The position numbers were made by a program, and so were the translations under genes. Shown here in pieces: positions 7,448-53,418 of a DNA stretch of 64,000 nt. The stretch's first letter is position 1; each line of letters opens with the position of its first letter. A model generated the notes under the pieces. The model saw nothing but the letters and a program-made list of their open reading frames with translations, did not search any database and was not told where the DNA came from. The stretch spans positions 1 to 64,000 of the forward strand of contig JAAYVR010000043.1 of NCBI GenBank assembly GCA_012517065.1, read 5' to 3'. This DNA is from Verrucomicrobiota bacterium (lineage in GTDB: Bacteria > Verrucomicrobiota > Verrucomicrobiia > Limisphaerales > J093).

Positions 7448-7514
7448 GAGCCAGAGTATTCTCTGTCGGAAGCGTTATTTGCAAGCTGCGTTGGTGTCTA
7501 TTAGCATTGTGGGC

Positions 7515-9345: not shown

Positions 9346-9467
9346 GCCCGCCAATCGGAATCGACAGAGAAGGAATGACGATTCAAGTGCGTCATGGTTG
9401 GTTGGATGGTGAGGTTTCCGGAAGCCCGCATATCTGCAATTGACTGGATTGGCCGGGGCGGGGCAAT

Positions 9468-10661: not shown

Positions 10662-10795
10662 AACCCGCCGAACTGGAAATCAGTTCAGGCCGTTGGTTTT
10701 GGATGCCAGCAATACGAGGGCCACAGGCCGGCCCATAGCAAAGTGTCCCGAAAACCAAACGCGGCTGAGCTTTGCTGACAGCCTGCCCGGCGAGG

Positions 10796-26029: not shown

Positions 26030-26308
26030 ATGTCAGCTAAGGCCGAAATCGCATGGAAAAGTCGTGAAGCCGACGGCACCAGCCGCCAGGTCTATGCCCA
26101 CAGGATTGGTGGTGAGTGGATTTTCTACCAGCGGCAAAAACGGTTTGAACGCTGGCAAAGAATCCAATACCCAAGTCTGGATGACTGGCTTTGCTTGCTC
26201 GACGGCATACAACGTCGTGTCCAGCGCCGACTGCTCCCACCCGAAATTGAAACCCGGGCAAAAAGACGCATCACAGAACTGTTCCCCAACGCTCCCATAG
26301 ACCATTAG
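26030..26308 (+). CDS. Small conserved-looking protein of unknown function
   Basis: 92-aa ORF just after ispF, compact charged/aromatic composition. Confidence 0.5.
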   Translation: MSAKAEIAWKSREADGTSRQVYAHRIGGEWIFYQRQKRFERWQRIQYPSLDDWLCLLDGIQRRVQRRLLPPEIETRAKRRITELFPNAPIDH

Positions 26309-26406
26309 CCCTCACATTTCGCGCGCAATGTAATCTCCAAAGCAGGTGCATTCTTAGAATTCACGAGACATGCCGGGTTCGGGAAAGACGCGCTCGACCA
26401 AAAGCA

Positions 26407-26477
26407 CTAGCCCAAAATCCCGCCGCTTGACCAGACCAAGACACACAGAGTTTCATTGTGGTGATATTTCCGGGCTA
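26407..26477. repeat. Family T palindrome, copy T6 (single module)
   Basis: CTAGCCCAAAATCCCGCCGCTTGACCAGACCAAGACACACAGAGTTTCATTGTGGTGATATTTCCGGGCTA. Confidence 0.7.
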
Positions 26478-26554
26478 ACACTTGCCAAAGTTAGTCTGCA
26501 ATTTGCTAATAACCAGCCTTGACTAAACTGGCCGTTACTACCAAAGTACGTGCT

Positions 26555-26830
26555 ATGCAAAACCCATTGCTAAACTTAACAGTACAACAACTGGAACGCG
26601 CCTTGCAAATTAGGCAGCAAATCGAATCGTTGCAGTCTGAACTCGACGCTTTGCTGGGTAGCCCGGCCAAAGCCTTGCCTGCCAAAGCTGCTCCAAAACT
26701 AAAAGCGGCTGCTCCTGCCCCCGCGCAAAAGAAGACATGGAAACTTAGCCCAGCGGCAAGAGCCAAGCTGGCGGCGCTCGCCAGAGCGCGCTGGCGCAAA
26801 GCCAAGGCAGAGGGCAAGACCCACCTGTAA
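26555..26830 (+). CDS. Small Lys/Ala-rich protein, putative nucleic-acid-binding C-terminus
   Basis: Coiled-coil-like NLTVQQLERALQIRQQIESLQSELDALLG, KAxPKxKAAAPAP linker, KLSPAARAKLAALARARWRKAKAEGK tail. Confidence 0.55.
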   Translation: MQNPLLNLTVQQLERALQIRQQIESLQSELDALLGSPAKALPAKAAPKLKAAAPAPAQKKTWKLSPAARAKLAALARARWRKAKAEGKTHL

Positions 26831-26857
26831 AGGTCTCAGTTGTTGGCAGTCCCAAGA

Positions 26858-26907
26858 AAGGCGCGCTGGTCCTTTCAACAAGCGCGGGAAAGGGTCCAGC
26901 GCGCCTT
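26858..26907. terminator. Strong hairpin, probably a bidirectional terminator between convergent genes
   Basis: AAGGCGCGCTGGtCCTTTCaacaagcgcgGGAAAGGgtCCAGCGCGCCTTcgtttt, between a + strand gene ending 26830 and glnA (-) ending 26992. Confidence 0.75.
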
Positions 26908-26991
26908 CGTTTTCTGCTCGCACACCTGCATCAAGACTCCAGTAAGAGTGCGTCCCAGAGTATTGCAGGTCCCTCTGAGGCGAACCATCGC

Positions 26992-28401
26992 TTAACAATC
27001 ATAGTACATGTGGAATTCCCATGGGTGCGGTCGCAAACGCACTGCGTCGTGTTCCCGCCGCTTGAGTTCAATCCATTGAGCTATCACGTCCGCAGTAAAC
27101 ACATCGCCCCGCAACAGGAATTCGTGGTCTTTTTCAAGACAATCGCACGCTTCGGCAAGGCTGCCGGGCATGCAGGGAACCTGCTTGAGCTCCTCGGGAG
27201 GCAATTCGTAAATGTTCTTGTCCAAAGGCTCGCCTGGCTCGATCCGGTTTTGAATGCCGTCAAGCCCTGCCATTAGCATCGCAGTGCAGGCAAGGTATGG
27301 GTTAGCTGCCGGATCCGGCGGACGGTATTCGAGGCGTTTCGCCTTTGGGCTGGGAGAGTACGTTGGGATTCGAATTGCAGCCGATCGGTTGCGCATGCTG
27401 TACGCGAGATTCACCGGCGCTTCATAGCCAGGCGTAAGGCGCTTGTAGCTGTTGACCGTGGGGTTTGTGAACGCTGCGATCGCGCGCGCGTGCTTCAGAA
27501 TCCCACCAATATAATACAACGCAAGTTCGCTCAGTCCCGCATACTTGGTGCCTGCAAACAACGGCTTGCCTTTCTTCCAAAGCGATTGATGCGTATGCAT
27601 CCCTGAACCGTTGTCACCGAACAATGGCTTGGGCATGAATGTTACCGTCTTCCCGTAGCGCCGCGCCACGTTCTTTACGATGTACTTGTACAGCATCATG
27701 TCATCGCCTATCTCAACAAGGGAATTGAACCGCAGATCGATCTCTGCCTGCCCGGCGGTCGCCACTTCATGATGCTCCTTTTCCACGTGCAACCCACAAT
27801 CGCGCATGACGTTGATCATTTCATTCCTGACATCTGCCAGCGTATCTGCAGGCGGCACAGGGAAATAACCCTCTTTGTGGCGAATCTTGTGACCAAGGTT
27901 CGGCCCTTCCTCACGGCCAGTGTTCCAAATTCCTTCGACTGAATCCAGATAGTAGTAGCTGCTCCGGGCATCGGCTCCATAACGCACATCGTCAAAAATG
28001 AAAAACTCGGCTTCAGGCCCAAAATATGCCGTGTCCGCAATTCCAGTGCTCTTCAGATAAGCTTCAGCCTTTCTGGCAATGTTTCTCGGATCGCGGCTGT
28101 ATGGCTCCCGCGTAATTGGGTCAACTGCATCAGCTACCACACTTAATGTCGGCACTTTGGGAAACGGATCGACGATTGCCGTCCTCGAATCAATCAACAG
28201 AATCATGTCGCTGGCTTCGATGCCCTTCCAACCACGAATCGAAGACCCGTCAAATCCCAAACCCGAGTCGAAAACCTCCTCGTTAAGCTCTGCAATTGGT
28301 ACGCAGAAATGCTGCCATGTCCCGAGCAGGTCACAGAACTTGATGTCAACCAGCTCGATGTTCTTGCTCTTGCAGAATTCCATTACTTCTTTAGGTGTCA
28401 T
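26992..28401 (-). CDS. glnA: Glutamine synthetase type I
   Basis: [72 protein letters not shown]. Confidence 0.96.
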
Positions 28402-35417: not shown

Positions 35418-36788
35418 TCAGTTTAGCGGCACACCACGCCGAATGTACGTCGGCGTGTCCAAATCCTCCCCCCGGTATAGCGTCGGTTCGCTCCTCGCAA
35501 AACGGCCCTTCGACACAACTTCCAGCGGCAGCATGCCCTGCCTCAGCTTCGCCTGCTTCTGTCGTCTCCTCACCGCTCCAGTGCCCGCTTGCTGTGCCAA
35601 CAACTGCTGAGCCTGCTCGGGCGACAGTTTCGGAGGCGGCGGCACGAATCGCGACGCAGGCCGCACAGTTTCGTTCCCCTCTTTCAGCGTCAACCCATTG
35701 CGCCCGCCTTCAATTGGAAACTCTGAAACCAACGGCGATTCAGCCGAAGCCTGGTCTTTTCCTTCCTCTGCCGCGGCCGGATCGGACGTGCTTCGGCGAG
35801 TCACAATCAACGTCATTGCAAGCCGCCCAGTGCAACTCGGATCAATCGCAGCGCCCATCACAACCTGGCTGTTCTCACAAGCGCGGTTGATCTGTTCCAT
35901 CACATGTTTCACCTCGCGCAAGGTCAGGTCGGGGCCCCCAACCAAACTCGCCAACACAGCTTCAGCCTCCGCCAGCAAATTCCCCCCATCCAAGAACGGA
36001 CTCGAAAACAGCTTCTGCACAACCTCCCGACTGCGGTGCTCACCCGCCGCAGACGCGGAAGCAAACGAGCTCTCCGCCTGCCGCCCCCGTACCACACGAC
36101 ACAAATCCGCAAAATTCACGTTGATCAAACCCTCCTGGGTCACCAAACGCGACAATCCACGCACACCTTCGGCCAAATGATCGTTCGCCACCCTGAACGT
36201 GTCCAGCAGCGTCGTGGTGTCATCAAGCAGCCCCGCAATCTTTTGATTCGGCAGGCATATAACCGCATCGGCAGCACACTTCAATTGTCTCAGCGACTGC
36301 TGCGCCTGTTGACTTCTGCGTTGTCCTTCGAAATCAAACGGCAGCGCCGCAACCCCAACCACAAGCGCTCCACAGTCGCGCGCAGCCCTTGCCAACACGG
36401 GCGCAGCCCCAGACCCGGTTCCCCCGCCAAGGCCCGTCACCAAGATCACCAAATCTTGATCCTTCGCCAGTTCTCGCAATGCTTCGACATCCGCTTCTGC
36501 AGCCGCCCGGCCAACGTCGGGATCACCGCCAGCCCCAAGCCCACGCGTAATGCCTCCGCCGAACAACACCTTCGGTTCAACTGCGCATTGGGCCAGTTGC
36601 CGAGCGTCAGTGTGCGCCACAGCAAAAGTAAGACCCGTTAGCCCGCTCTGGACCATGTGCGCGACCGCCTGCAATCCGGCTCCGCCAAGCCCGACAACGC
36701 GTATGACCGGCGCTCTGCGCACCGGAGGCAGTCCCACTGCAATGTTCTCAGCCTCAGTCATAGTTAGCTCTCCATGATCCTTATTCAC
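35418..36788 (-). CDS. ftsZ: Cell division protein FtsZ (divergent)
   Basis: GLGGGTGSGAAPVLARAAR tubulin signature, GITRGLGAGGDPDVGRAAAE, T7 region EGLINVNFADL, C-terminal peptide DLDTPTYIRRG. Confidence 0.92.
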   Translation of the reverse strand: MNKDHGELTMTEAENIAVGLPPVRRAPVIRVVGLGGAGLQAVAHMVQSGLTGLTFAVAHTDARQLAQCAVEPKVLFGGGITRGLGAGGDPDVGRAAAEADVEALRELAKDQDLVILVTGLGGGTGSGAAPVLARAARDCGALVVGVAALPFDFEGQRRSQQAQQSLRQLKCAADAVICLPNQKIAGLLDDTTTLLDTFRVANDHLAEGVRGLSRLVTQEGLINVNFADLCRVVRGRQAESSFASASAAGEHRSREVVQKLFSSPFLDGGNLLAEAEAVLASLVGGPDLTLREVKHVMEQINRACENSQVVMGAAIDPSCTGRLAMTLIVTRRSTSDPAAAEEGKDQASAESPLVSEFPIEGGRNGLTLKEGNETVRPASRFVPPPPKLSPEQAQQLLAQQAGTGAVRRRQKQAKLRQGMLPLEVVSKGRFARSEPTLYRGEDLDTPTYIRRGVPLN

Positions 36789-39001: not shown

Positions 39002-39970
39002 TCAACCTCGCACTGTCACGGCTCGCTTCAAAGCAAGCTCCACCATCCGCTGACACAACGCCCCAAAGGAATAGCCAGCCGCCCCAGCCGCTTTCGGCAG
39101 CAAACTCAATTCAGTCATCCCCGGCAACGTGTTCACCTCCAATACAACCGGATCGCCGTTGGACCGAACCATCACATCCACCCGCGCATAGTCCCGCGCC
39201 CCAACCGCACGAAATGCCGCCAGAGCAGCTTCCTGAACCCGCGAAGTCGTCGCCCCATCAAACCGGCCCGGAAGGTAGTACTCGGTCGCCCCCTTGGTGT
39301 ACTTGTGTTCGTAATCAAGTACACCATCCCTCGGACAAACCTCGATCACCGGCAACGCTTTGTCCTCGAGAATCCCCACAGTCGCTTCCCGGCCCACAAT
39401 GCGTTCTTCCATCAAAACTTCGGTGTCATACTCCAAAGCCCGTTCTATCGCCGGACGCAACTGAGAGATCTCGTTGACCATCTCCAACCCAACACTCGAC
39501 CCCTGCCTTGCGGGTTTGATCACAACCGGCAGCCGCCAGCCCTCAGGTAATTTTTCAATGGCCTCCTCCAAAACAACAAAAGGCGCCGTCGGCACACCCG
39601 CTTCCAAGAACTTTTTCTTCGCCAAAATCTTGTCGAACGCAATCCTGCTGGCTTCGGGACCAGACCCTGTGTACGGCACACCAAGCTTGTCCAACTCGGC
39701 TTGCACAGTGCCGTCTTCGCCATACGTCCCATGCAAAGCAAGAAAAACCACTTCCGTCCCATCCGGCAAACTCCATCCCGGCCCATTCCGAGGGTCCAAT
39801 TCTGTGACATGGTGCCCAAGCAAACGCAACGCGCCCGCAACTGCGCGCCCCGACCGGATCGATATTTCACGCTCGGCCGATGGCCCGCCCAACATCACAG
39901 TTATCCGCCAAGGTTTCCTTGTCCCTTCCACAACTGCACCTTTGCCCAACGATAAACTCCCAAGGCTCAT
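39002..39970 (-). CDS. ddl: D-alanine--D-alanine ligase
   Basis: MLGGPSAEREISIRSG, LHGTYGEDGTVQAELD, EVNTLPGMTELSLLPKAA. Start chosen downstream of the murB stop. Confidence 0.94.
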   Translation of the reverse strand: MSLGSLSLGKGAVVEGTRKPWRITVMLGGPSAEREISIRSGRAVAGALRLLGHHVTELDPRNGPGWSLPDGTEVVFLALHGTYGEDGTVQAELDKLGVPYTGSGPEASRIAFDKILAKKKFLEAGVPTAPFVVLEEAIEKLPEGWRLPVVIKPARQGSSVGLEMVNEISQLRPAIERALEYDTEVLMEERIVGREATVGILEDKALPVIEVCPRDGVLDYEHKYTKGATEYYLPGRFDGATTSRVQEAALAAFRAVGARDYARVDVMVRSNGDPVVLEVNTLPGMTELSLLPKAAGAAGYSFGALCQRMVELALKRAVTVRG

Positions 39971-40013
39971 CTCGTTGCAAACCCGCTCAACCAATTCCGT
40001 TTCTCCCAAATCA

Positions 40014-41000
40014 CTAGGCGTCTTCGCCCACAATCTCAATCTCAGTTTCCAATTCAACTCCCAAGGTTTCCTTCACCTTCTCGCGCACTCGGTCGATCAA
40101 CTCGATCATCTCAGCCGCACTCGCGCCACCTTCGTTAATCAGGAAATTCGCGTGCACTACCGACACCGCAGCCTTGCCCACCTTGAACCCCTTCAGCCCG
40201 GCACGATCAATCAGCCATCCTGCCGCCCCCGCCGAAGTGTTCTTGAACACACACCCCGCACTCCATTCCCTCGGCTGCATGGCCAAACGACGACGACGCA
40301 TTTCCTCCATTCGCTCGCGAATCGCTGCACACGTGTCCACCACACCCTTGAACACCGCCCCCAAAACAACCTTGTCCTTGAAAAACTCGCAGCCCCTGTA
40401 CTGCGCGCCAAATTCCTCCGCAGCCCCTTCCCGAACAGTCCCATCCTTTTCCATGTATTTCGCTCGCTGCAGCACACCAAAAGTGCTCCCTCCAAATGCG
40501 CCTGCGTTCATCCGCAGTGCGCCACCCACTGTCCCCGGAATCCCATCCATGAACTCGAACCCGCTCACCCCCGCATCGCAAGCCGCCCTCGCCACAAACC
40601 TCAACGCAGCCCCGCTTCCACACAGAACAGTTGTGCCCTCAACTGCCACTCTGCAAAAAGCGGGCCCACGCAACGCCATCACCACACCCCGAATCCCGCC
40701 ATCCCGCACCAAAAGGTTCGAGCCATGCCCAATCACAAGCAACGGCAAACCACGCGCCACACAACACCGCACTATGACGCCAACATCCTCTTCGGTCCCC
40801 GGTTCAACATACCAGTCCGCCGTACCACCAACACGCAACGTCGTCAAACGCGACATCGGTTCGTTCGCCCGCACCACGCTCCAGGCAGACAAACCCGCAC
40901 TTTCAAAAGGCGACGCCACCCGCTTTGCCGCTCCCGCCAAATGAGCGCCCGCGACTCCGTCTGCACCGCCGGAGCCGCCGCAATCACGATGGCTTGCCAT
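40014..41000 (-). CDS. murB: UDP-N-acetylenolpyruvoylglucosamine reductase
   Basis: LTTLRVGGTADWYVEP, GHGSNLLVRDGGIRGVV, GIPGTVGGALRMNAGAFG, SAGCVFKN, HANFLINEGGA. Confidence 0.93.
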   Translation of the reverse strand: MASHRDCGGSGGADGVAGAHLAGAAKRVASPFESAGLSAWSVVRANEPMSRLTTLRVGGTADWYVEPGTEEDVGVIVRCCVARGLPLLVIGHGSNLLVRDGGIRGVVMALRGPAFCRVAVEGTTVLCGSGAALRFVARAACDAGVSGFEFMDGIPGTVGGALRMNAGAFGGSTFGVLQRAKYMEKDGTVREGAAEEFGAQYRGCEFFKDKVVLGAVFKGVVDTCAAIRERMEEMRRRRLAMQPREWSAGCVFKNTSAGAAGWLIDRAGLKGFKVGKAAVSVVHANFLINEGGASAAEMIELIDRVREKVKETLGVELETEIEIVGEDA

Positions 41001-41019
41001 GATATGCAATTGTCCCACG

Positions 41020-42210
41020 TCAACAGCTTCGCCCATTCGCACCCAAAACAGCAGCTTCAGAATCACAAGGCGCCCTCGAACTAATCACGCTCGAACCCTC
41101 GCCGACTCGCCCCGCCAAACCCGCGAGCGCATCGGCAATCCGCTCAGCCGCATATTTCACGTGCCACTTGCCCAGCGCTTGCCCCATCATTTCCAGCCGC
41201 CGCCGGTCGCGCAGCAAATCCAGCACAAGTTTCGCGACAGTTTCAGGTGTGGCATCACTCTGTCGAAGCACACACGCCGCATCCGATTGTTCAAAAGCAC
41301 GCGCATTGTGGTATTGATGATCATCCGCAGCGTACGGAAAAGGAATCAGTATCGCTGGCAACCGCACCGCAGCTTGCTCTGCAAGCGACGAAGCACCGGC
41401 TCGCGTCACAGCAAGAGTCGCCGCCCCCAAAACAATCCACATCTCACGGAAAAATGCTTCAACCACAGCCCGCACGCCGTGCTTCTCGTACGCCCGGCGC
41501 ATCAAGTCTGCGTCGTGCGCCCCTGTCAAATGCACGTACTGAAGTTCCGGCGCCTCAGCCGCAAGCATTCCAACCGTCTTCTCCATCAGCCCATTCAACG
41601 GGCGTGCGCCCTGGCTGCCCCCCATCACAAGCAACACAGGCAATTGCGCGTCCAGCCCAAGTGCCTGGCAACACCTGTCCCTGTCCAAGCGCTCAAACTC
41701 ACCACGCACAGGCATCCCAGAGACACAAACCCGCCTGTTCTTCAAACGCCTCCCCGCTTCGGGAAAATACACAAACACTTCCCGGGCAAATCTCGAGAAC
41801 CATCTGTTAGCCCGGCCAGGCACCGCGTTCGCCTCGTGCAGAAACACAGGAATACCCATCAGCCGCGCACAAACAACCGCCGGCGCAGACGCGAACCCGC
41901 CCATCGCAAGGACCGCACACGGACGTCGCCTACGAAAAAGGCCCGCACATACGCGAACAGATTTGCACAACGCCCAAACAGATCTGCCAACGCCCCGCCC
42001 TGAAAACGGTAAAACCGGCAAACGCACCACTTCAACGCCAGGTACCCATCCCGTACCAATTTCATCCACGGCCTTCGACGATACCAGCAATTGCGCCTCC
42101 ACTCCCCTTTCCTTCAGCGCACGCGCAACGGCTACTCCGGGGAAAAGATGCCCGCCTGTCCCCCCGCAGGCTATGGCCGCCAACGGACTGCCGCGTTCGC
42201 GTTCCATCAC
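41020..42210 (-). CDS. murG: UDP-N-acetylglucosamine--lipid I transferase MurG
   Basis: ACGGTGGHLFPGVAVARAL, LAMGGFASAPAVVCAR, FLHEANAVPGRANRW, TRAGASSLAEQAA. Confidence 0.95.
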   Translation of the reverse strand: MMERERGSPLAAIACGGTGGHLFPGVAVARALKERGVEAQLLVSSKAVDEIGTGWVPGVEVVRLPVLPFSGRGVGRSVWALCKSVRVCAGLFRRRRPCAVLAMGGFASAPAVVCARLMGIPVFLHEANAVPGRANRWFSRFAREVFVYFPEAGRRLKNRRVCVSGMPVRGEFERLDRDRCCQALGLDAQLPVLLVMGGSQGARPLNGLMEKTVGMLAAEAPELQYVHLTGAHDADLMRRAYEKHGVRAVVEAFFREMWIVLGAATLAVTRAGASSLAEQAAVRLPAILIPFPYAADDHQYHNARAFEQSDAACVLRQSDATPETVAKLVLDLLRDRRRLEMMGQALGKWHVKYAAERIADALAGLAGRVGEGSSVISSRAPCDSEAAVLGANGRSC

Positions 42211-42216
42211 ATCAAT

Positions 42217-43329
42217 TCATGCCGTGGCCGTTTCTTCGGATTCTGCCAGTCCTACTTGAACAATAGCGCCGGGTGAACCAGCCAATGCAATGCTCACCAA
42301 CACGCCCGTGCACAAAAGCATCATCGCCAGATTCGACCCGCCGTAGCTTATAAAAGGCAGTGCCAACCCCTTGTTCGGCGCCGCGCCAGATACAACCATC
42401 AGATTAATCAGCGCCTGAAGCCCAATTAGAAAGCTTATCCCGGTGCCCAACAGCATCCCAAACGCGTCCGGCGCACGCCACGACGCGACTATCCCGCTCA
42501 GAAAAAACGCAAGAAACAACCCCACCACAACAACCGACCCAACAAAACCAAATTCCTCCGCTATGATCGCAAAAATGAAATCCGTCTGATGCTCCGGCAA
42601 CAGCGCTTTCTCACGGCTCTGGTTAAGCCCCACACCCAGTAATGACCCGCGATTCAGCGCCTCCCTCGCCCGCCATGCCTGGTACCCTACCCCGTCACGC
42701 GTCTCTTCAAGATGCAGCCATGAGTAAATCCGATCGCTCCTCACCGGGTTCACCGCTAGCATTGCACCCAAAACTGCCCCCCCTATAACCGCCGGTATCA
42801 CCACGTACCCCCACCGCACACCAGCCACCAAAAGCATCACCATGGTCACACAACCCAAAAGTATTGCCGTCCCCCAATCCGGTTCTCGAAACACCAAAAC
42901 CAGCACAGGCGCCGCTATCAAACCCGGATATAGCAAACCCCGCCGAAAGGTCCGCATCAGACTTTGACAGTGCGCACAGTAATGCGCCAGCACAAGCACA
43001 AGCGCCAGTTTCGCAAAATCCGATGGCTGAAACTGAATGCCCCCGAACCTGAACCACCGCCGCGCCCCGTGCACCTCAACTCCCACAACCAACACGGCCG
43101 CCAAAAGCACCAGAGCAAGCAGGTAAAAAACCACCGATACGTATCTCAGCCTCCTGTAACCCACCACAACCATCGCCACCGCCCCCACCATCCCAAGACC
43201 ACCCGCAACCAGTTGCCGCGACAGGAACCGCATGCTCGCATGCGGCGGACTCACACTGTAAAGCATCACCAAACCAAGCGAGAGCAGTGCCAGCACCGCA
43301 ATAATCATAACTGTCGCAACCCGTTTCAT
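42217..43329 (-). CDS. ftsW: SEDS peptidoglycan polymerase FtsW
   Basis: VEVHGARRWFRFGGIQFQPSDFAKLALVL, LLPEHQTDFIFAIIAEEFGFVG, LPFISYGGSNLAMMLLCTGVL. Confidence 0.94.
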   Translation of the reverse strand: MKRVATVMIIAVLALLSLGLVMLYSVSPPHASMRFLSRQLVAGGLGMVGAVAMVVVGYRRLRYVSVVFYLLALVLLAAVLVVGVEVHGARRWFRFGGIQFQPSDFAKLALVLVLAHYCAHCQSLMRTFRRGLLYPGLIAAPVLVLVFREPDWGTAILLGCVTMVMLLVAGVRWGYVVIPAVIGGAVLGAMLAVNPVRSDRIYSWLHLEETRDGVGYQAWRAREALNRGSLLGVGLNQSREKALLPEHQTDFIFAIIAEEFGFVGSVVVVGLFLAFFLSGIVASWRAPDAFGMLLGTGISFLIGLQALINLMVVSGAAPNKGLALPFISYGGSNLAMMLLCTGVLVSIALAGSPGAIVQVGLAESEETATA

Positions 43330-43478: not shown

Positions 43479-44297
43479 TCATTGGCCCGGAGGCAAAACC
43501 AATGAGCCAGTGCCGCTCCCAGTCTTGGTCTCTGTCGTCCCTTTGGTGGCTGTTGTCCCTTCTCCACTGCGCGCCCCGGGAATTCTCAGTTTCTGACCAA
43601 CAACAATCTTATCAGACTTCAAGTTGTTCGCCGTGCGTATGTCTGAAACAGTAACGCCATACCGCTTCGCTATCTTGGTTAGGTTCTCACCGCCCTTAAC
43701 CACATGCACAAGACCGCCTTCGGTTCCAGTTTGTAATTCCACGCCCTCGGCCGTTTTCTGACCGGGTTCAGGTGCCGGAATTTGCACCTTCTGCCCAACC
43801 TTGAGCTTCCGCGGATCAAGCCCCGGATTCGCTTTCATAAAAGCCGTAAGCGTCACTCCGTGCTCCTTGGCGATGTTAAACGGCACATCGCCTGGTTTCA
43901 CGATATACTCCGTCGGCCCGCCAGGAGCAGGCTGCAAGGTCGGTTGTGGCTCTGTCACACTCGGCTGCTGTTGTGTCTGCTGCGGCTGAGTCTGCTGCAC
44001 CAAGCCGGTCGCGCCCTGCCACTGCGCCGTCGCCGTATCGACAACGCTGGTTTGGCCTGCCTGCGGTGTCTGCTGGCCAACCGTACCCAGATCGTAGGAC
44101 GGCGGCTTCGCGAGGTTAGTGTCCGCACCGCCGCCAGCCAATGGCGGCCCGCTGCTCGGGCGTTTGCACCCCTGCAACAGCAGCCCCGCCAAAAACACGC
44201 TGTGTATCGCAAACATCGTTATGACCGTCAGCCGGAAGTTCGCCCTCCGATTGGCTTGTTGTCCGCTGAGTGTCGTTATGGGTGACATTGTACTCAT
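43479..44297 (-). CDS. LysM-domain envelope protein (two LysM repeats), Q/P-rich linker
   Basis: EYIVKPGDVPFNIAKEHGVTLTAFMKANPGLDPRKLKVGQKVQIP; VHVVKGGENLTKIAKRYGVTVSDIRTANNLKSDKIVVGQKLRIP; N-terminal hydrophobic segment with Cys. Confidence 0.88.
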   Translation of the reverse strand: MSTMSPITTLSGQQANRRANFRLTVITMFAIHSVFLAGLLLQGCKRPSSGPPLAGGGADTNLAKPPSYDLGTVGQQTPQAGQTSVVDTATAQWQGATGLVQQTQPQQTQQQPSVTEPQPTLQPAPGGPTEYIVKPGDVPFNIAKEHGVTLTAFMKANPGLDPRKLKVGQKVQIPAPEPGQKTAEGVELQTGTEGGLVHVVKGGENLTKIAKRYGVTVSDIRTANNLKSDKIVVGQKLRIPGARSGEGTTATKGTTETKTGSGTGSLVLPPGQ

Positions 44298-44812
44298 TTT
44301 ATGCCTCGCTCTCTAAACTCTCTAAGCTCTCTAAACTCAATATGCGTGGGACACTGCTCAATAATTCCTTTGCTGCCGATAACTTCCCGCGCAGCAGTCC
44401 GGCGCAAAATATCAACTCCAGTTCCGCGCAACCGATCAACCAACGAAAAAACGCGCATCGCACCTGCCTTTCCGGTGGTACCAACGCCATCGTCGGAATC
44501 AACACCCACCGCAGCTTGCGTGGTCGCCAGCCCCAACACCACGCTTTCCCATTGGTGGTTCGGAAGCATTGCAGAATCACAACGGGCCACACACCTCAGT
44601 CTCCGGCGCATCGGGCCCGCGCCTTCGTCACAACACAGTTTCCTATCACCAACATCCCCACAGCGCAAGACGCAAAACAACCCACGCTCACGGCGATCAT
44701 GCCCCGGCGCCAACTCAATGCGGATGTCCACCCGACTCGGCACTTGACCCCGCACAGCACACAAGCTTTCAACCACATTGTCCAGACGCCGTGTTCTCAT
44801 CCAGGTTCCCAC
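44294..44812 (-). CDS. Uncharacterised 172-aa protein in the dcw cluster between mraY and the LysM gene
   Basis: 16 bp from mraY end; stop overlaps the LysM start (ATGA at 44294-44297), indicating translational coupling. Confidence 0.65.
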   Translation of the reverse strand: MGTWMRTRRLDNVVESLCAVRGQVPSRVDIRIELAPGHDRRERGLFCVLRCGDVGDRKLCCDEGAGPMRRRLRCVARCDSAMLPNHQWESVVLGLATTQAAVGVDSDDGVGTTGKAGAMRVFSLVDRLRGTGVDILRRTAAREVIGSKGIIEQCPTHIEFRELREFRERGIK

Positions 44813-44827
44813 ATATAGCAGCCGTTC

Positions 44828-45991
44828 TCACCGCATCTTGAGCGTCGCCAGCGCCACTACAGCACACAAAATGCTCAAAATGTAAAAACGAATCACCACT
44901 TTCGACTCATACCAGCCCTTCTTCTCGAAGTGATGATGTATCGGCGCCCTCAAAAAAATCCTCTTGTCCGTCTTGAGGTATTTCCTGCTGTACTTGGCCG
45001 AGAGCACCTGCAGAATCACTGAAACCGCCTCCAACACAAACACCCCACCGGCAATGAACAGCGCAAACGGTTGCTGTATCAGTACAGCTATTATCCCCAA
45101 CAAACCGCCCAACGCCAGTGACCCCGTGTCCCCCATGAATACCTGCGCAGGATGACAGTTGAACCACAGAAACCCCAACGACGCCCCAAACACCGCTCCG
45201 CACAGCACCGTCAGTTCCCCGGCCCCGGCTACGTACGGCACCTGCAGATAGGCCGCAAACCGCGCATGCCCCGCTATGTACGTCAATACTAGGAAAGCCA
45301 TCACCACAATCGCCGTGCACCCAATCGCCAACCCGTCCAACCCGTCCGTCAAATTCACCGCATTTGAACTCCCAACTATCGTGAATACCGTCAAAGCAAT
45401 CCCCAAAACCGCCCCGCCGCATGTCACCGGGTATTTCCAAAACGGCAGTACAACCTCCGTCACAAGTTTCCGCATGTGCAAATCGTTATACAGATAAAAC
45501 GCCACAAACAGCGCCAGCAAGAATTGAACAGACAGCTTCACTTTCGCGTTAATGCCCTTGTTGGACTGGTGCGCTATCTTGACATAGTCATCAACAAACC
45601 CAACCAGCGCAAGAACCAGCAACGCCAACAAACTCAGCACCGTCAACTGATTCCACTGCGCCCACAGCAACGCCGACAGATCAATCGCCACCACTATCAA
45701 CAGCCCGCCCATCGTCGGCGTGCCCCGCTTATCAACTATCCGCGCCTTCAGATCGCCCGCTTCCTCGGCGGCGTCCTTGTAGTTCTGCCCCATGCATAAC
45801 CGTTTCAACCACGCAATCACCGCCGGCCCAAACCACAAACTCAAGAGCAACGCCGTCAATGCCCCGCCCGCTGTCCGAAACGTGATGTACCGAAATACAC
45901 GCAACGGCGACAGTAAATCCCCCAGCTCGGTCCCCGCCGTTTCTTCCAACAAAAACTGACTCAAATAGTAAAACACCTCGCAGCTTCTCAA
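44828..45991 (-). CDS. mraY: Phospho-N-acetylmuramoyl-pentapeptide-transferase
   Basis: KRGTPTMGGLLIV, FVDDYVKI, SSNAVNLTDGLDGLAIG, FLRAPIHHHFEKKGW. Confidence 0.95.
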   Translation of the reverse strand: MRSCEVFYYLSQFLLEETAGTELGDLLSPLRVFRYITFRTAGGALTALLLSLWFGPAVIAWLKRLCMGQNYKDAAEEAGDLKARIVDKRGTPTMGGLLIVVAIDLSALLWAQWNQLTVLSLLALLVLALVGFVDDYVKIAHQSNKGINAKVKLSVQFLLALFVAFYLYNDLHMRKLVTEVVLPFWKYPVTCGGAVLGIALTVFTIVGSSNAVNLTDGLDGLAIGCTAIVVMAFLVLTYIAGHARFAAYLQVPYVAGAGELTVLCGAVFGASLGFLWFNCHPAQVFMGDTGSLALGGLLGIIAVLIQQPFALFIAGGVFVLEAVSVILQVLSAKYSRKYLKTDKRIFLRAPIHHHFEKKGWYESKVVIRFYILSILCAVVALATLKMR

Positions 45992-47496
45992 CGCTTGGTT
46001 CCAACGCCAGCCAACTCACCGCCAGCACTCAGCTTGGCATCACTGCGCAAGCATCCACACTCGCCATCCCGATCACCCCCGGCACAATCGCTGTCTCCCG
46101 CCCCTTCCCATCGCAGCCGCACAGCCTCAACAATGTCTTCCATCCTCATCACCCGCGACGCTTTCACAAGCACCAAATCCCCATCCCGCACAAAATCACA
46201 CAACGCACCCGCCGCCGCACCCTTGTCATCAAACTCCAAAACCTCAACCGGCCCCGCACGACGCGCCGCTTCCCCATATACACGCGCCCATCGTCCCACA
46301 GCTAAAATGTGCGAAACCCCAGCGCTCACAGCATAACCGCCCACCTCAGCATGCAACGCTTCGCTCTTCGAACCTTGCTCGCACATCTCGCCCAGCACCG
46401 CAATCCGACGCCCCTTGCATGGAAGTTCCTTCAAAGTGTCGAGCGCCGCACGCATCGAATCCGCATTCGCGTTGTAAGTGTCGTCCAACACACGAACACC
46501 CCCAAACCTCAGCATCTGCATGCGGTGCGCCGCCGCCCCGCACAATAACAACCCCGACACGATTTCGTCCCGGCTCAACCCAAGTCTGGCTCCGACGGCA
46601 ACCGCCAGAGCCGCATTCACGGCCTGGTGCTTCCCAAGCAACCGGAGCTTGTACTTCCCCTCGTACTCGCGCACCGGCGCAAGAATCGCAAACTCGGTCC
46701 CTTCGTCGCCGACCACTGCCGACAGCAGCCGCCATTCAGCCGATACACCACAGCCAACGCGCACAACCGGCACGCGCGCCCGGCCAATCACACGCTCGAT
46801 CCCCGGCGCGTCAGAGTTCACAACAAGAACGCCACCTCCATCCACATGCTCACCTATCACACCTTCCTCGTCCAACACACCGTCCAGATCGCCGAAAAAC
46901 TCAAGGTGCTCCCGTCCTATCCCAGTCAACACACCCACAGTCGGCCGAATCATCTCCAACAAAGGCGCCAGCTCGCCCGGATGGTTCGTCCCCGCCTCAA
47001 CCACCGCCGCTTCATGCGCCCCCTCAAGCCCAAGCAACGTAAGCGGCACCCCAATCTCGTTGTTGTAACTCGCCTCACTAAACAAGGTCCGAAACCGCGC
47101 CGCCAATACGCTCGCAATAAGGTTCTTCGTTGTGGTCTTCCCATTTGACCCAACCACCGCAACCACCGGAATAGCAAAGGCACGCCGGTGCCACGACGCC
47201 ATATCCCCAAGCGCACGGCGAGTGTCTTCCACGCGCACGACGCAACAATCACGTGTCTCGCTGATGCCTGCGCCGGATTCAACCACCACCCCCACCGCAC
47301 CGCGTTGCACCGCCTCAGCAACAAACCGGTGCCCGTCGTGCCTCTCACCCCTAATTGCCACAAACAGGTCACCGGCCTGCACATGGCGCGAGTCAATCAC
47401 AATCCGCCGGACAATCGCGCGCGCATCGCCGCGCATCACTTGCCCGCCGCAGCTCGTCGCCAGTTCGTGTATCGGCCTCGGTTCCATCTTCCACAA
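45988..47496 (-). CDS. murF: UDP-N-acetylmuramoyl-tripeptide--D-Ala-D-Ala ligase
   Basis: VVAVVGSNGKTTTKNLIASVL, AGTNHPGELAPLLEMI, REHLEFFGDLDGV, LDDTYNANADSM. Confidence 0.94.
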   Translation of the reverse strand: MWKMEPRPIHELATSCGGQVMRGDARAIVRRIVIDSRHVQAGDLFVAIRGERHDGHRFVAEAVQRGAVGVVVESGAGISETRDCCVVRVEDTRRALGDMASWHRRAFAIPVVAVVGSNGKTTTKNLIASVLAARFRTLFSEASYNNEIGVPLTLLGLEGAHEAAVVEAGTNHPGELAPLLEMIRPTVGVLTGIGREHLEFFGDLDGVLDEEGVIGEHVDGGGVLVVNSDAPGIERVIGRARVPVVRVGCGVSAEWRLLSAVVGDEGTEFAILAPVREYEGKYKLRLLGKHQAVNAALAVAVGARLGLSRDEIVSGLLLCGAAAHRMQMLRFGGVRVLDDTYNANADSMRAALDTLKELPCKGRRIAVLGEMCEQGSKSEALHAEVGGYAVSAGVSHILAVGRWARVYGEAARRAGPVEVLEFDDKGAAAGALCDFVRDGDLVLVKASRVMRMEDIVEAVRLRWEGAGDSDCAGGDRDGECGCLRSDAKLSAGGELAGVGTKR

Positions 47497-47500
47497 ACAA

Positions 47501-49033
47501 TCAGCGATTTATAAGCTCAAGCTCGTTGCGATACCCAGCGCGCTCAAGGTCTTCAGCCATTTCAAGGCTTTCTCGAACGTAAACCCTGTCGTCAAACGGC
47601 ACAATGGCATGATTGACCTTCTGACAGGTCAGATGCCCCTTTCCGGCTATCAGGATCGTGTCGCCTCGCTTCGCCATGTTCATCGCCTTTGCAATCGCCG
47701 CCCGCCGGTCGCACTCGATCTCAAATCCCCCCGCCTTGATGCGCCGCATCCCGCTCACCACTTCGGACGCAATTGCTTCAGGCGACTCACAACACGGATT
47801 GTCCGCGGTCACTATCGCATGGTCCACCAATCGCGCTGCCACTTCGCCCAGCTCCACACGCTCGTCATGTGTGTGGTCCACCCCAGCCCCGAACACCAAT
47901 AACAGCCGACCGCGCCCTGTCTGCCTCAAAACGGCAAGCGCCTTGCTCAACCCGGTCTTCCTCCGCGCTGAATCCACGAAAACCCTGAACGGCTGCCCAC
48001 AATCAACAGCCTCCAAATGGCCGGGAACAGCCGTCATATCCTCCAACGCATCACGCAAAGCACACAACGGCACATCAAGAGCAACCGCAACACCAACCGC
48101 ACCGACCAACACCCGAAGATCGTCACGATGCAGTATCGGCACCGCCACCGAAATCAACCCACCGGGCACTTTCAATCGCAGCCGCGCACCATCGCTGTGA
48201 AGCCAGCATTCCTGCACATGCACAGCCGCCGCCGGACTCGTCCCACAAGTCACTACTCGATTTGCACGGACCGACCTGCCACAGGCCGCTGCCATTGCGT
48301 CGTCATAGTCACAAACAACCGCTGTAAACCGTTTCTGGCCGTCCTTGGGCGCCAGCCCCAAAACACACGACTCGGACGTTCCACCGCGCTGTGTTCCGAC
48401 GCCATCCGCCTGTCCCATCCCATGCACAAACGCCGCAATGTCGCATCGCGTCGTGACCGAGTTTTGCGCCACAACGTTCCATGGCCGAACCTCCACCACG
48501 CATGCAGCACAACCACTCCGCACCATCCCAACCATCAGCCTCTGTGCATCCACCGCCTCCGGCACAACACCGAACTTCGGGATCGCCCTTTCACCATATT
48601 CATCAACTATGCTTCCAACCAGTCCACTCTCGATCCCCGCGTTCTGTAACAGTCGTCTGACAAGATAAGCAGCGCTGCTCCGAGCCTCGCCACCCGTCAC
48701 CCCAATCACCGTCAATTGTCTCTCGGGATGCCCATAGAAAATCTCCGCCGCCCGAGCCATGGCCATCCGGGAATCCCTAACGCGCACCGCAACAACCCTC
48801 GGCGGACGAAACAGCGGCCGTTCATACACAATGGCCACCGCGCCCTGCTCAAGCGCAGTGGTGATGTGATTGTGACCGTCACCAGCCGAGCCCGAAAAAG
48901 CGAAAAATGCAGACCCCCTCCTCACTTTCCTCACGTCATATTGCAAATCTGCCACCGGAACATCCAATGCGCCCCCAAAAGTCCGCGCAGGTGTTCCGTC
49001 CAAGATTTCTCTGAGTGATATCTGCGTTCTCAT
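47501..49033 (-). CDS. MurE-family Mur ligase homologue with eroded catalytic motifs (putative pseudoenzyme)
   Basis: 510 codons open from ATG 49033, 10 bp from the ftsI end and 4 bp from the murF start; scaffold retained (RVRDSRMAMARAAEIFYGHPERQLTVIGVTG, LVFGAGVDHTHDERVELGEVAARLVDHAIVTADNP, FDDR) but Walker A reads GGEARSS. Confidence 0.85.
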   Translation of the reverse strand: MRTQISLREILDGTPARTFGGALDVPVADLQYDVRKVRRGSAFFAFSGSAGDGHNHITTALEQGAVAIVYERPLFRPPRVVAVRVRDSRMAMARAAEIFYGHPERQLTVIGVTGGEARSSAAYLVRRLLQNAGIESGLVGSIVDEYGERAIPKFGVVPEAVDAQRLMVGMVRSGCAACVVEVRPWNVVAQNSVTTRCDIAAFVHGMGQADGVGTQRGGTSESCVLGLAPKDGQKRFTAVVCDYDDAMAAACGRSVRANRVVTCGTSPAAAVHVQECWLHSDGARLRLKVPGGLISVAVPILHRDDLRVLVGAVGVAVALDVPLCALRDALEDMTAVPGHLEAVDCGQPFRVFVDSARRKTGLSKALAVLRQTGRGRLLLVFGAGVDHTHDERVELGEVAARLVDHAIVTADNPCCESPEAIASEVVSGMRRIKAGGFEIECDRRAAIAKAMNMAKRGDTILIAGKGHLTCQKVNHAIVPFDDRVYVRESLEMAEDLERAGYRNELELINR

Positions 49034-49043
49034 TTGGTTTTCC

Positions 49044-50948
49044 TTATTGCCTGGAAACCTTAGGCGCCGGTTCCACGCGCACCCGCGCAGCCAGCGCAGG
49101 TGTCTGCCCCGTGCCCGGCACGTCCGATGGTTTGTCAGGCGGCAAATGCAAATAGGCCGCGATCCGCTCCGCGATCGCCTTGAAAACAGGCGCCGCAACC
49201 GTCCCGCCCATGTAACCAACGCGGCGATCAGGCTCATCAATCCCAACCACAATGCATACAGCAGGACGATCCGCCGGGAAAAATCCTATGAACGACGCGT
49301 AGTACTTCCCCGACTTGTACGTGCCATCCACAAACTTCTGCGCAGTGCCCGTCTTCCCCGCAACCGTGTACGACTCCATTTCAGCCGCCGATGCAGTCCC
49401 CTCGCGACTCACCGCCTTCTTCAAAGCACGAACCATCTCACGGCATACACGTTCGCTCGCAACACGCCTCACAGCACTGGCCGGGTACTGCACAATCACC
49501 CGCCCACCCGAATCCTCGAGCCGGTCAATCAACCTCGGACTCATCAGCGTCCCACCATTCGCAATAGCTGACATCGCCATTACCATCTGAAGCGGTGTCG
49601 CACTCACTTCCTGTCCTATCGGCACCCGCGTTATCGACAGCTTGCTCCATTGGTTTGTCGGCCGAATAACGCCCGCTGCCTCGGTCGGCAACGGTATCCC
49701 GGTGCGCTGCCCAAAACCAAAATTCCGCACCACCTGATAAAGCCGACCCGGCCCCAAACGGACCGCAGCCTTTGCCGTCCCTATGTTCGAGGATTTGCAA
49801 ATGACTTTTTCGTAAGGCAGTACACCGTAGGGATGCACATCGTGAAGCCACGCACCCCCATACCACCACCGGCCATTCTCACAATCCACCGTGTCCTCCA
49901 AAGTCAGTATCCCTTCCTCAAGACAGGTCGTTATCGTGACTATCTTGAAGGTTGACCCTGGCTCGGTTAAGTCCGATATCGCACGGTTCCGCCAGCCCTC
50001 CACCCCGGACGCAGGCGAGTTGGGATCAAAAGTCGGCGCACTCGCCATCGCAAGAATGTCCCCCGTAAACGGCCGGACCGCGATCGCACACACCCCCGCA
50101 GGCGAGTACTTCTTCATCGCAGCAGCAAGTTCGTCCTCAACAATCGCCTGAATAGTCGCGTCCACCGTCAAAACAACGTTCAGCCCCTCCTTGGGTTCAA
50201 CCCCGCCCCCAGCCACCGCCCAGCCATGCACCCCAGCCAACGCCCTGTCGCACGTCAACTCAATCCCAGTAAGCCCCCTGTCCTCGAACACAGGCCCGTA
50301 ATCCGTGTTCGTTTCCGCCGACGACACATACCCCAAAACATGCGCCGCAAGCGTCCCGCTCGGATAGTGCCGAAGGTAATCGTCGCTGCCAAAAACTGAC
50401 CGGTACCGAAGAGCATCCCACGCAAGTTTCTGGCTCGCCCGAATCCGCCGCCCAGGTGACTTCATCTCCAGCCGAGCCATTGCCTGCGTCACCTGCTGCC
50501 ACGTGTCAATCGGCACTTTCCGCTTCAAAACTACATAGCTGTTCGTAATCAAACGCCCGTCAACCGCATTCGTCCGAACCCGCGGCGATATAAGAGACAA
50601 CAAATCCGACTCCTTCATCTGCAAAAGAGGCGCCAGACTCTTCGCAATCGCCACATGCTGCGTGAAAATCAACGAAGGATCCGCACACACCATCTTGGTC
50701 GGCACGCTCATCGCCAAAACCGTCCCCCGGCAATCCAGAATCGCGCCTCGACGACCCGGCCTCGCTGTGCGGCTTGAAACAGTGCTGCGCTCGGACACCG
50801 GCCCGTCATCAGAAAAATGAAGCTGCAGATGCGCAAGCCATCCCACCAGCCCAACAAACGCCAGTGTCACTGCAGAGGCCATCACAGCCATCCGCCGATA
50901 TGGAACAACACTCAGCATCAAACCTTTTCCCAAATTGCCGCCGTCCAC
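49044..50948 (-). CDS. ftsI: Peptidoglycan transpeptidase FtsI (PBP3)
   Basis: EPGSTFKIVT (SxxK), KSSNIGTAK (SxN), AGKTGTAQKF (KTG). Confidence 0.95.
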   Translation of the reverse strand: MDGGNLGKGLMLSVVPYRRMAVMASAVTLAFVGLVGWLAHLQLHFSDDGPVSERSTVSSRTARPGRRGAILDCRGTVLAMSVPTKMVCADPSLIFTQHVAIAKSLAPLLQMKESDLLSLISPRVRTNAVDGRLITNSYVVLKRKVPIDTWQQVTQAMARLEMKSPGRRIRASQKLAWDALRYRSVFGSDDYLRHYPSGTLAAHVLGYVSSAETNTDYGPVFEDRGLTGIELTCDRALAGVHGWAVAGGGVEPKEGLNVVLTVDATIQAIVEDELAAAMKKYSPAGVCAIAVRPFTGDILAMASAPTFDPNSPASGVEGWRNRAISDLTEPGSTFKIVTITTCLEEGILTLEDTVDCENGRWWYGGAWLHDVHPYGVLPYEKVICKSSNIGTAKAAVRLGPGRLYQVVRNFGFGQRTGIPLPTEAAGVIRPTNQWSKLSITRVPIGQEVSATPLQMVMAMSAIANGGTLMSPRLIDRLEDSGGRVIVQYPASAVRRVASERVCREMVRALKKAVSREGTASAAEMESYTVAGKTGTAQKFVDGTYKSGKYYASFIGFFPADRPAVCIVVGIDEPDRRVGYMGGTVAAPVFKAIAERIAAYLHLPPDKPSDVPGTGQTPALAARVRVEPAPKVSRQ

Positions 50949-50957
50949 TCGATCATG

Positions 50958-51359
50958 TCATTCCACCCCGCCGCGCAAACCCCTGCTCGCAACAGCCCCG
51001 CCAAGCCCGCCAGCCAAACCGCCACCAACATCCCCCACAACCCGACTCACACCACCCGCGTCCACAACAGACAACACCTGTTCCGGCGCAATCAAACCGA
51101 GCTGCCACTTCTGAATCGCCGATTGCAACGCCCGCGGCGACCGCAATTCCTCCAGCACTTGATCAAGTTGCTGATTCTGTTTCCTGACCCACTCGAGGTG
51201 CGCTGATCGCCTGTGCAGCTCGCGGCTCAATTGAGCGTTGCGATTCCGATGCCAAACATACCCAAGCCCGGAAAAACACAGAAAACCGCATGCCCAAACC
51301 GCCATACAAAACGGCCCAAGCCGCACAATCCCGCTCCGGCTTTTCCGATTCGTCGCCAT
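50958..51359 (-). CDS. FtsL-like small membrane/coiled-coil protein
   Basis: Position between rsmH and ftsI; single TM then coiled coil RELHRRSAHLEWVRKQNQQLDQVLEELRSPRALQ; Gly-rich tail. Confidence 0.7.
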   Translation of the reverse strand: MATNRKSRSGIVRLGPFCMAVWACGFLCFSGLGYVWHRNRNAQLSRELHRRSAHLEWVRKQNQQLDQVLEELRSPRALQSAIQKWQLGLIAPEQVLSVVDAGGVSRVVGDVGGGLAGGLGGAVASRGLRGGVE

Positions 51360-51371
51360 ACTCTCACTCGC

Positions 51372-52325
51372 TCACAGCTTCTCCAAAACACGCAAACGCG
51401 CGCTGCGCGCACGCGCATTCTCGGCCACTTCGGCTTCAGAAGGTGCAATCGCCTTCCCGGTCACCCACACCGCCAACGGCGCCCTCGGACGCCTCAACTC
51501 CGGCACGTCCACCTCGCCCTCAACTTCATAGTCTCGAACCAGCGCCCGGCCAAACTCACGTACCACCCTCTCTTCGCCAGAATGAAAACAGATCACAGCC
51601 AAACGCCCGCCCGACCGCAGCACCCGCCACGCACTCACAAGCCCGCGCCTCAACACACCTTCCTCGTCATTCACCCGCATCCTCAACGCCTGAAACACAC
51701 GCGTCGCCGGATGCGTGGACGCCCCCCGGCGCGGCACCAAACGCTCGATCAATTCTGCCAGCTCGGTCGTTCGCTCGATCCGCTTGTGCCGCCGAGCCCT
51801 GACAATCCCGCGCGCAATCAGCCTCGCCCGGCGTTCCCCGCCAAGCTCCCTGAACAGCCTCTCAAGCTCCCGCGCATCAAGCTCGTTTACAAGGTCACAC
51901 GCCGTAAGCCCCTGCGACCGGTCAAACCGCATGTCCAATGGCCCATCCAGTTGAAAGCTGAACCCGCGCTCAGCACTATCAAGCTGGTAACTGCTTACCC
52001 CAAGGTCCAGCAACACGCCGTCCACACTCCCCTCGGGTACCCAGTCCGCCACGTCTGCGAAGTTGCCAACACGCAATTCAACACGGTCCCCGAACTCAGC
52101 CAGTCGCACCCGGGCGGCCGCGACAGCTTCCGCGTCCCGATCTATGCCAAACAACCGCGCTGCAGGCGCACCAGCACGCAAAACCGCCGCCGCATGTCCG
52201 CCACCCCCAACCGTCCCATCGACATAGAACCCCCCAGACCGCGGCTCCAGCACAGCCACAACTTCATGCTCCAAAACCGGCTTGTGAAAAAAGCAAGGCA
52301 CATGCACTTCGCGCTGCTGCAACAC
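51372..52325 (-). CDS. rsmH: 16S rRNA (cytosine1402-N4)-methyltransferase
   Basis: HKPVLEHEVVAVLEPRSGGFYVDGTVGGGGHAAAVL, DGVLLDLGVSSYQLDSAERGFSFQLDGPLDMRFD, ICFHSGEERVVREF. Confidence 0.95.
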   Translation of the reverse strand: MLQQREVHVPCFFHKPVLEHEVVAVLEPRSGGFYVDGTVGGGGHAAAVLRAGAPAARLFGIDRDAEAVAAARVRLAEFGDRVELRVGNFADVADWVPEGSVDGVLLDLGVSSYQLDSAERGFSFQLDGPLDMRFDRSQGLTACDLVNELDARELERLFRELGGERRARLIARGIVRARRHKRIERTTELAELIERLVPRRGASTHPATRVFQALRMRVNDEEGVLRRGLVSAWRVLRSGGRLAVICFHSGEERVVREFGRALVRDYEVEGEVDVPELRRPRAPLAVWVTGKAIAPSEAEVAENARARSARLRVLEKL

Positions 52326-52945
52326 TACGCGCTGCTGCGCATCGCCGTCTGCCCATTCAATCGCGACAAAAACCGCCTGAAAATTGAACCCGCGCCGTGC
52401 TCAGTCGCCGTGCCCTGCACACCAACACGGTCACCCGACCGCTTCGCTTGCACGATCTCAATGTCAGCGTCACTAAGATCGTTCCGAACCACCCTCACCG
52501 CCGTCAGACAAAGTTCACCCTGCGCAAGCGGGCCAGCAGATCGACGACGACGACGCCACAAACCGCCCGACACAATTTCCCAAATCCGAGCCGTGCCCCG
52601 CGCAGCCACAGCAGCTCGTACCTCGCCGCGCGTTTCACCGCTGGTTTGTTTCTCCGGCAATTTGAACGCCGGTTTGCCAGCCAGCGACACACCCGGCTTC
52701 GGCGCCTCAACCGCGTCCGAAGGCGCAACTCCAAACAGCGGCAACTCGCATTGATTTGCAATTCGCACCGCTGTTGTGCTATGCTCATCACTGCACTGTG
52801 CAGTCGAACCCGCCGCGGGCGCGTTCGATGCCGATTTGCCAAAAACGGGCAGGAATCCGGGCTCGACGGTCTTAAACCGACGCGGCCGGCGACTGAACCC
52901 AACAAATGTCTGGTTCGCGACCAACAGTTGATATGGCTTCGTCAT
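52325..52945 (-). CDS. Uncharacterised protein between mraZ and rsmH
   Basis: 206 aa from MTKPYQLLVANQTFVGFSRRPRRFK; C-terminal LCLTAVRVVRNDLSDADIEIVQAK; tightly packed between mraZ and rsmH. Confidence 0.65.
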   Translation of the reverse strand: MTKPYQLLVANQTFVGFSRRPRRFKTVEPGFLPVFGKSASNAPAAGSTAQCSDEHSTTAVRIANQCELPLFGVAPSDAVEAPKPGVSLAGKPAFKLPEKQTSGETRGEVRAAVAARGTARIWEIVSGGLWRRRRRSAGPLAQGELCLTAVRVVRNDLSDADIEIVQAKRSGDRVGVQGTATEHGAGSIFRRFLSRLNGQTAMRSSA

Positions 52946-52947
52946 GG

Positions 52948-53418
52948 TTAAATGAGCGCAAGCGCTTCCTGCTCTCTGGCATTGTCCTGCTCCTCTACCG
53001 CCTTGTAATGGTCCGGATTCCAAATCTGAAACCGATCCAGCATCCCAACCAAAACTGCTTTCCGCGTAATCCCGGCCGCTTCCGCAAGCCACTGCGGCAG
53101 ACAAATCCTGCCAGCACTGTCCAGCTTAACAGAATCGGATTTCCGCGTTATCACGCGGCGCAGCGTCTCGGCTCGCAGGTCCGAAAACGCAAGATCGTTG
53201 ATCTTCTTTTCGAGCGCTGCCAGCACCGGCGGCGGCAAAGCCAGCAGACACGGATGCTCCTGCCCCTTTGGCTGCCAGAGAACCAGAAGGAATTCAAACT
53301 CCGGCTGGTCCACTGGCGGCCGCCACTTGGCAGGAATCTGTACTCGCCGTTTATCATCGACCAAGTGCTCATAAACAGCGTAGTACCTCGTGCCAGATAC
53401 TGCTTTTTCTTCAGCCAT
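52948..53418 (-). CDS. mraZ: Division/cell wall cluster transcriptional repressor MraZ
   Basis: YEHLVDDKRRVQIPAKWR..., KLDSAGRICLPQWLAEAAGITRKAVLVGMLDRFQIWNPD. Confidence 0.9.
   Translation of the reverse strand: MAEEKAVSGTRYYAVYEHLVDDKRRVQIPAKWRPPVDQPEFEFLLVLWQPKGQEHPCLLALPPPVLAALEKKINDLAFSDLRAETLRRVITRKSDSVKLDSAGRICLPQWLAEAAGITRKAVLVGMLDRFQIWNPDHYKAVEEQDNAREQEALALI

Follow-up and report, generated by a model that had tools for sequence, protein, structure and literature searches.

The window, a 64,000-nucleotide stretch of DNA from a member of the Limisphaerales, carries at the murE position of its dcw cluster a full-length MurE homologue without the catalytic motifs, here designated MurE*. 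Its open frame, purifying selection, and lost catalytic residues make MurE* a well-supported pseudoenzyme, as judged from sequence. It is probably retained as such in a cell that obtains UDP-MurNAc-tripeptide by having Mpl load a preformed tripeptide, with MurF acting next; a scaffold role for MurE* is likely.

The MurE* ORF is on the minus strand, from an ATG at 49033 to a stop at 47503-47501, and its neighbors are closely packed around it: it begins 10 bp after ftsI and ends 4 bp before murF, so that the intact 510-codon ORF between these genes described in the initial annotation is confirmed. Pfam matches cover the N-terminal (Mur_ligase) and C-terminal (Mur_ligase_C) domains, with no match to the Mur_ligase_M ATPase domain (PF08245), whereas the adjoining MurF has all three. 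Against the NCBIfam murE model TIGR01085 the score is 267.1 bits, marginally above the cut-off of 257.3, and MurE* is below the cut-off of each NCBIfam MurE equivalog model listed. The motif replacements in the initial annotation, GVTGGEARSS among them, were correct on re-reading: the lysine of the Walker A motif GTNGKT(T/S) is missing from what is now GGEARSS, and the diamino-acid pocket has DNPC for DNPR (Arg lost) and GKGHL for GKGHE (Glu lost). By alignment, neither the carbamylated-Lys segment nor the DHLDYH block is found. Of the residues invariant in 30 intact MurE sequences from the same order, MurE* retains 17 of 20 in the N domain, 27 of 68 in the middle domain, and 43 of 62 in the C domain; together with the TIGR01085 score and the domain matches, this bears out the description of a full-length MurE scaffold with eroded catalysis. 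Compared to a MurE ligase such as that of Verrucomicrobium spinosum (PMC3681970), MurE* is alike in locus position, length, predicted fold, N domain, and the DR, GKGH, and PFDDR elements of the C domain, but is without the P-loop Lys, TTPEA, EVSSHAL, DHLDYH, the carbamylated-Lys segment, DYAHT, the DNPR Arg, and the GKGHE Glu.

Table 1. Features of the dcw cluster in the window, in order of position.
Feature	Position	Strand	Evidence
ddl	39002..40057	-	
murB alone, without a MurC part	40014..41066	-	
murG	41020..42210	-	
ftsW	42217..43329	-	
Gene for the LysM protein of the order's dcw cluster	43479..44297	-	
Gap of ~530 bp between mraY and the LysM gene; murD slot in intact relatives	44298..44827	.	
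mraY, intact	44828..45991	-	
murF, intact	45988..47496	-	GSNGKTTTKN P-loop; TIGR01143, 375 bits
MurE*, full-length MurE homologue without catalytic motifs (candidate pseudoenzyme)	47501..49033	-	Motifs, profiles, dN/dS, predicted fold
Former P-loop, GVTGTNGKTT to GVTGGEARSS	48674..48703	-	Sequence, alignment
ftsI	49044..50948	-	
ftsL, rsmH, mraZ (head of the dcw cluster)	50958..53418	-	

Comparison of MurE* with its counterpart in a congener (G001) gave dS 0.24, dN 0.055, and dN/dS 0.231 (bootstrap 95% CI 0.158-0.332), with neutrality rejected at a binomial p = 6e-15, which argues against chance or random decay. The murF value for the same pair is 0.162 (0.114-0.226), an interval that overlaps that of MurE*. 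The initial suggestion that an open frame with eroded motifs is not simple pseudogenisation is thus upheld by the dN/dS against G001: a MurE scaffold with eroded catalysis, a frame apparently under selection, and no second MurE in the assembly point to a pseudoenzyme instead.

AlphaFold predicts all three domains of a Mur ligase fold for MurE* (pLDDT 83, pTM 0.85), with low-confidence segments at residues 188-192 and 205-223, where the DHLDYH and carbamylated-Lys segments used to be. The underlying alignment included 17 homologues, 11 eroded and six intact MurE, and since the intact sequences favor a MurE-like result the model suggests compatibility with the MurE fold rather than giving independent proof of it. 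The best PDB match by fold is plastid PAP11 (8r6s_Q, TM 0.83), with MurE structures next at up to 0.80; by sequence the closest is also PAP11, and then MurE. PAP11 (8r6s, 8w9z; AtMurE of Arabidopsis), a subunit of the plastid-encoded RNA polymerase, is like MurE* a MurE homologue persisting in a structural context, but it is eukaryotic, is part of an RNA polymerase complex, and retains a P-loop in the plant sequence that was aligned, while MurE* remains at its native position in a bacterial operon.

Eroded MurE genes with open frames were aligned from ten related genomes (G001, G003, G005, G008, G009, G012, G013, G019, G045, and G069), and another is found in record JAQGOX010000137 (L213), for a set of 12 with MurE*. 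The P-loop Lys is present in none of these, each DHLDYH residue in at most one, the carbamylated Lys in one, and the DNPR Arg and GKGHE Glu in two each; the DR, GKG, and most of the PFDDR residues are in all 12. Mean retention of the residues invariant in the 30 intact sequences is 0.73, 0.37, and 0.68 for the N, middle, and C domains, respectively. Catalysis thus appears to have been selectively lost and the shell kept, which is the pattern of a pseudoenzyme. In every eroded copy examined but one (G011) the full-length frame is open, across deep divergences. The frameshifted G011 gene was set aside as proof of pseudogenisation, because breaks in mpl and further genes of that genome suggest assembly error. 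In G002 and G010, murE is deleted entirely. The initial annotation would have been contradicted if relatives had a canonical murE and this strain alone carried frameshifts. That is not the case: in relatives the gene is eroded but open, deleted, or intact, matching their MurC/MurD state. A different form is found in G029, which has MurC and MurD: its MurE (L186, frame from 5188) is gapped in frame by 83 residues within the central domain, either an assembly collapse or an early lesion.

The dcw clusters of the window and its relatives are otherwise complete. No MurD remnant is recognizable in the three minus-strand frames of the gap between mraY and the LysM gene. At the murB position, intact relatives mostly have a MurC-MurB fusion of ~800 aa, with murC and murB as separate genes in a few; the MurC part has therefore been lost from the window. 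A replacement ligase within the cluster was considered and rejected, the conserved extra ORFs being, upstream of mraZ, genes resembling QueA and RibD, together with one resembling SIMPL/DUF541, all named from reading the sequences rather than by family search. The last of these, identified by eye, lies between ftsI and murF, adjoining murF, in genomes without an intact murE (L088, L098, L100, L104, and L086; 239-284 aa). The FtsZ of the window (35418-36788, minus strand) has GGGTGSG where GGGTGTG is the usual tubulin signature, and its C-terminal tail is extended.

Elsewhere in the window genome, a draft of 298 contigs estimated as 95.4% complete, the only recognizable Mur ATPase domains are those of MurF, Mpl, and FolC (the last assigned by reading the sequence), with no further one above cut-off. 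A second canonical MurE, or another Mur ligase, was looked for and rejected as an explanation, none being found in the assembly; MurC, MurD, and glutamate racemase (MurI) are likewise absent from it. Decay had at first been thought specific to the gene at the murE position, a view that cannot be kept with murC, murD, and murI missing altogether: MurE erosion is instead a single stage in a reduction of the whole pathway that has recurred many times within the order. The Mpl gene (on C65) scores 457 bits against an equivalog cut-off of 389 (TIGR01081), has a GTHGKTTT P-loop and the Mpl-specific motif AFFDKRSK (defined in PMC3060825), and can be aligned to the Psychrobacter Mpl structure (3hn7). 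A dipeptide epimerase homologue is also present, and the mDAP epimerase DapF is kept in nearly all of the genomes examined.

MurC could be scored in all but two (too incomplete) of 78 relatives from this order, called Pedosphaerales, which we take to be the Limisphaerales of GTDB; most of the genomes are fragmented drafts. It is present in 27 and absent from 49. Intact MurE is found in 27/27 MurC-bearing genomes vs. 5/49 without MurC, MurD in 27/27 vs. 14/49, and MurI in 20/27 vs. 1/49. Mpl is above cut-off in 71 of the 78; three MurC-less genomes have no strong match, all of them incomplete (75-89%). Every MurC-bearing genome also has MurD and MurE (including the gapped MurE of G029); G038 and G053 have lost only MurC, with murB alone in a cluster running on to ftsZ and with MurD and MurE intact; and G004, G007, and G052 have an intact MurE, with MurC and MurD gone. 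This places the loss of MurC first. In several genomes without MurC and MurE the active-site blocks of MurD are altered and its C-terminal domain is strongly conserved; in others, such as G033, the MurD motifs are nearly intact. Short ORFs between mraY and the LysM gene in G037 (L099), G004 (L075), and G012 (L082) resemble MurD at its extreme C-terminus alone (FTPC...LLEA), murD being otherwise lost in these genomes; those of G037 and G004 are ~160 aa long.

When eight dcw proteins were concatenated for a tree, with G038 and G053 counted as MurC-bearing, 8-9 changes in the MurC label were required, at least seven of them forced by well-supported branches, which rejects one single loss. The changes are multiple events, between whose directions, loss or gain, the tree alone does not distinguish; MurC loss is polyphyletic. 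Sampled genomes of the same class outside the order keep MurC, in several families as lower-scoring MurC-MurB fusions, with one apparent exception (G154). This genome (genus g75; one contig, nominally 100% complete) yields just one MurC-like match (8e-87), in contrast to the full MurC of its congeners, and its assembly is possibly error-rich. For the order as a whole, the balance of evidence tips somewhat toward a history in which MurC was repeatedly dropped, then MurD and MurE (and MurI), with the tripeptide step carried out only by Mpl, using peptide from a hidden synthase or from neighbors, and with the leftover MurE and MurD now non-catalytic structural proteins.

On the explanation we hold to be probable, the stem peptide would no longer be built residue by residue via MurC, MurD, and MurE, and MurE would be dispensable as an enzyme because the stepwise route is no longer used. 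Mpl would attach preformed L-Ala-gamma-D-Glu-mDAP to UDP-MurNAc, yielding UDP-MurNAc-tripeptide, the substrate of MurF, which would then add D-Ala-D-Ala. MurC would be the first to go as Mpl took over, with MurD and MurE then decaying or being deleted, and MurF, MraY, MurG, MurB, and Ddl staying throughout. MurE* would be unable to bind ATP or to ligate diaminopimelate, and is apparently still selected. Since Mpl and MurF are kept, with MurB, MraY, MurG, and Ddl, the path from UDP-MurNAc and tripeptide through Mpl and MurF is complete on paper. Counting against this explanation, the analysis traced no source of the tripeptide, and net growth cannot be sustained by recycling by itself; the lack of clear AmpG and LdcA in the window's family and the three MurC-less genomes without a strong Mpl match also weigh against it. 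The joining of L-Ala-gamma-D-Glu-mDAP to UDP-MurNAc is the established reaction of Mpl (PMC3060825; PMC6448482). Its covering for MurC is a plausible first step, after which longer peptides would make MurD and MurE redundant; multicopy E. coli Mpl complements a murC temperature-sensitive mutant (PMC3060825). The Mpl of this genome is a full member of its family (TIGR01081; PMC3060825), signature motif included, but known Mpl is a dispensable recycling enzyme working beside MurC-MurE, and here it is the sole recognized enzyme remaining that could make UDP-MurNAc-tripeptide. We infer flux through it, and likewise the tripeptide origins and the scaffold role considered below.

Two proposals for the source of the tripeptide are versions of the Mpl-route explanation, with which their probabilities overlap. 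MurC-less lineages could, as stem-peptide auxotrophs, be importing muropeptides from other bacteria for Mpl and MurF, a possibility we put a little short of even. An evolving dependency of this kind would fit the repeated, stepwise character of the losses, the loss of glutamate racemase also counts in its favor, and AmpG-like permeases (11/49 MurC-less vs. 0/27 MurC-bearing genomes) and LdcA (13/49 vs. 2/27) are distributed in the expected direction; but the AmpG association is not significant once corrected for relatedness, the LdcA counts are uncorrected for it, neither protein was clearly found in the window's own family, and dependency would be needed in large-genome bacteria of many families. 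Tannerella forsythia, a MurNAc auxotroph (PMC5790795), is a precedent in having lost early cytoplasmic peptidoglycan genes and salvaging from outside, but its losses are the sugar steps MurA/MurB, whereas here the peptide steps MurC, MurD, and MurE are lost and MurB is kept, and salvage is hypothetical. About equally conceivable, if slightly less so, is an unrecognized non-Mur ligase system, ancestral in the order, that makes L-Ala-gamma-D-Glu-mDAP, for example by epimerizing L-Ala-L-Glu with a YcjG-like enzyme and joining the product to mDAP; MurC, MurD, and MurE would then have been redundant, which would explain their polyphyletic loss. The dipeptide epimerase homologue, found in the window genome, is in 40/49 MurC-less vs. 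15/27 MurC-bearing genomes, and DapF is kept where MurI is lost. Against this, the epimerase association is not significant once corrected for relatedness, five MurC-less genomes (G037, G046, G069, G070, and G076) have neither MurI nor a strong epimerase match, and no ligase was found: a replacement gene beside mpl was rejected, with no conserved ligase-like neighbor in 20 loci, as was the epimerase as a marker of an anabolic route, being enriched rather than exclusive and having no conserved neighbors. LdcA (Peptidase_S66) was seen near the epimerase gene in two genomes (G063:C91, ~26300-28250; G068:C134, ~5650-10690).

Other explanations would do without a role for MurE*. With MurC and MurD gone, MurE could have been left without a substrate and be decaying slowly, functionless, its frame merely not yet broken. 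Erosion does track MurC/MurD loss, relatives span intact, eroded, and deleted murE, and the dN/dS of MurE* is somewhat above that of murF, with overlapping intervals; but the strength of purifying selection, the full-length frames kept across deep divergences in all eroded copies examined but that of G011, and the keeping of fold residues as catalytic ones were lost make this unlikely. That ordinary MurC, MurD, and MurE are hidden in the unassembled 5% of a draft genome, or are too diverged to detect, is very improbable: the dcw cluster is contiguous across the gaps, nothing else in this genome scores above cut-off for a Mur ATPase domain, and the loss is common to dozens of independent assemblies, many >90% complete, in a class that otherwise almost always has MurC.

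On the preferred reading of MurE* as a retained pseudoenzyme, it could be a structural partner of the neighboring MurF/MurG/MraY machinery, a sensor, or nothing. The first is most likely. Association among Mur enzymes is known, MurG acting as scaffold, and in Bordetella MurE-MurF interacts with oligomeric MurG (PMC6420597); PAP11 is an example of a MurE recruited to a structural role. Any such scaffold is not indispensable, since G002 and G010 have dispensed with murE outright. The altered MurD shells and the MurD C-terminus ORFs support, but do not prove, the idea that Mur shells are kept as components of a complex.

Textbooks treat MurC, MurD, and MurE as essential, and the enzymes are targets of antibiotics; Verrucomicrobium spinosum, a relative, cannot do without them (PMC12283558). 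No earlier report of their loss in this order was found in the searchable literature, a scope that leaves out most subscription journals and all bioRxiv preprints. The genomes of the order present graded stages in the collapse of one pathway (intact, MurC lost, eroded, deleted), and in MurE* a bacterial MurE would have become a pseudoenzyme. Because Mpl and MurF are kept, the recurrent losses suggest either that a tripeptide synthase awaits discovery or that stem peptides are cross-fed; cross-feeding would help to account for the difficulty of culturing these mostly uncultured bacteria.
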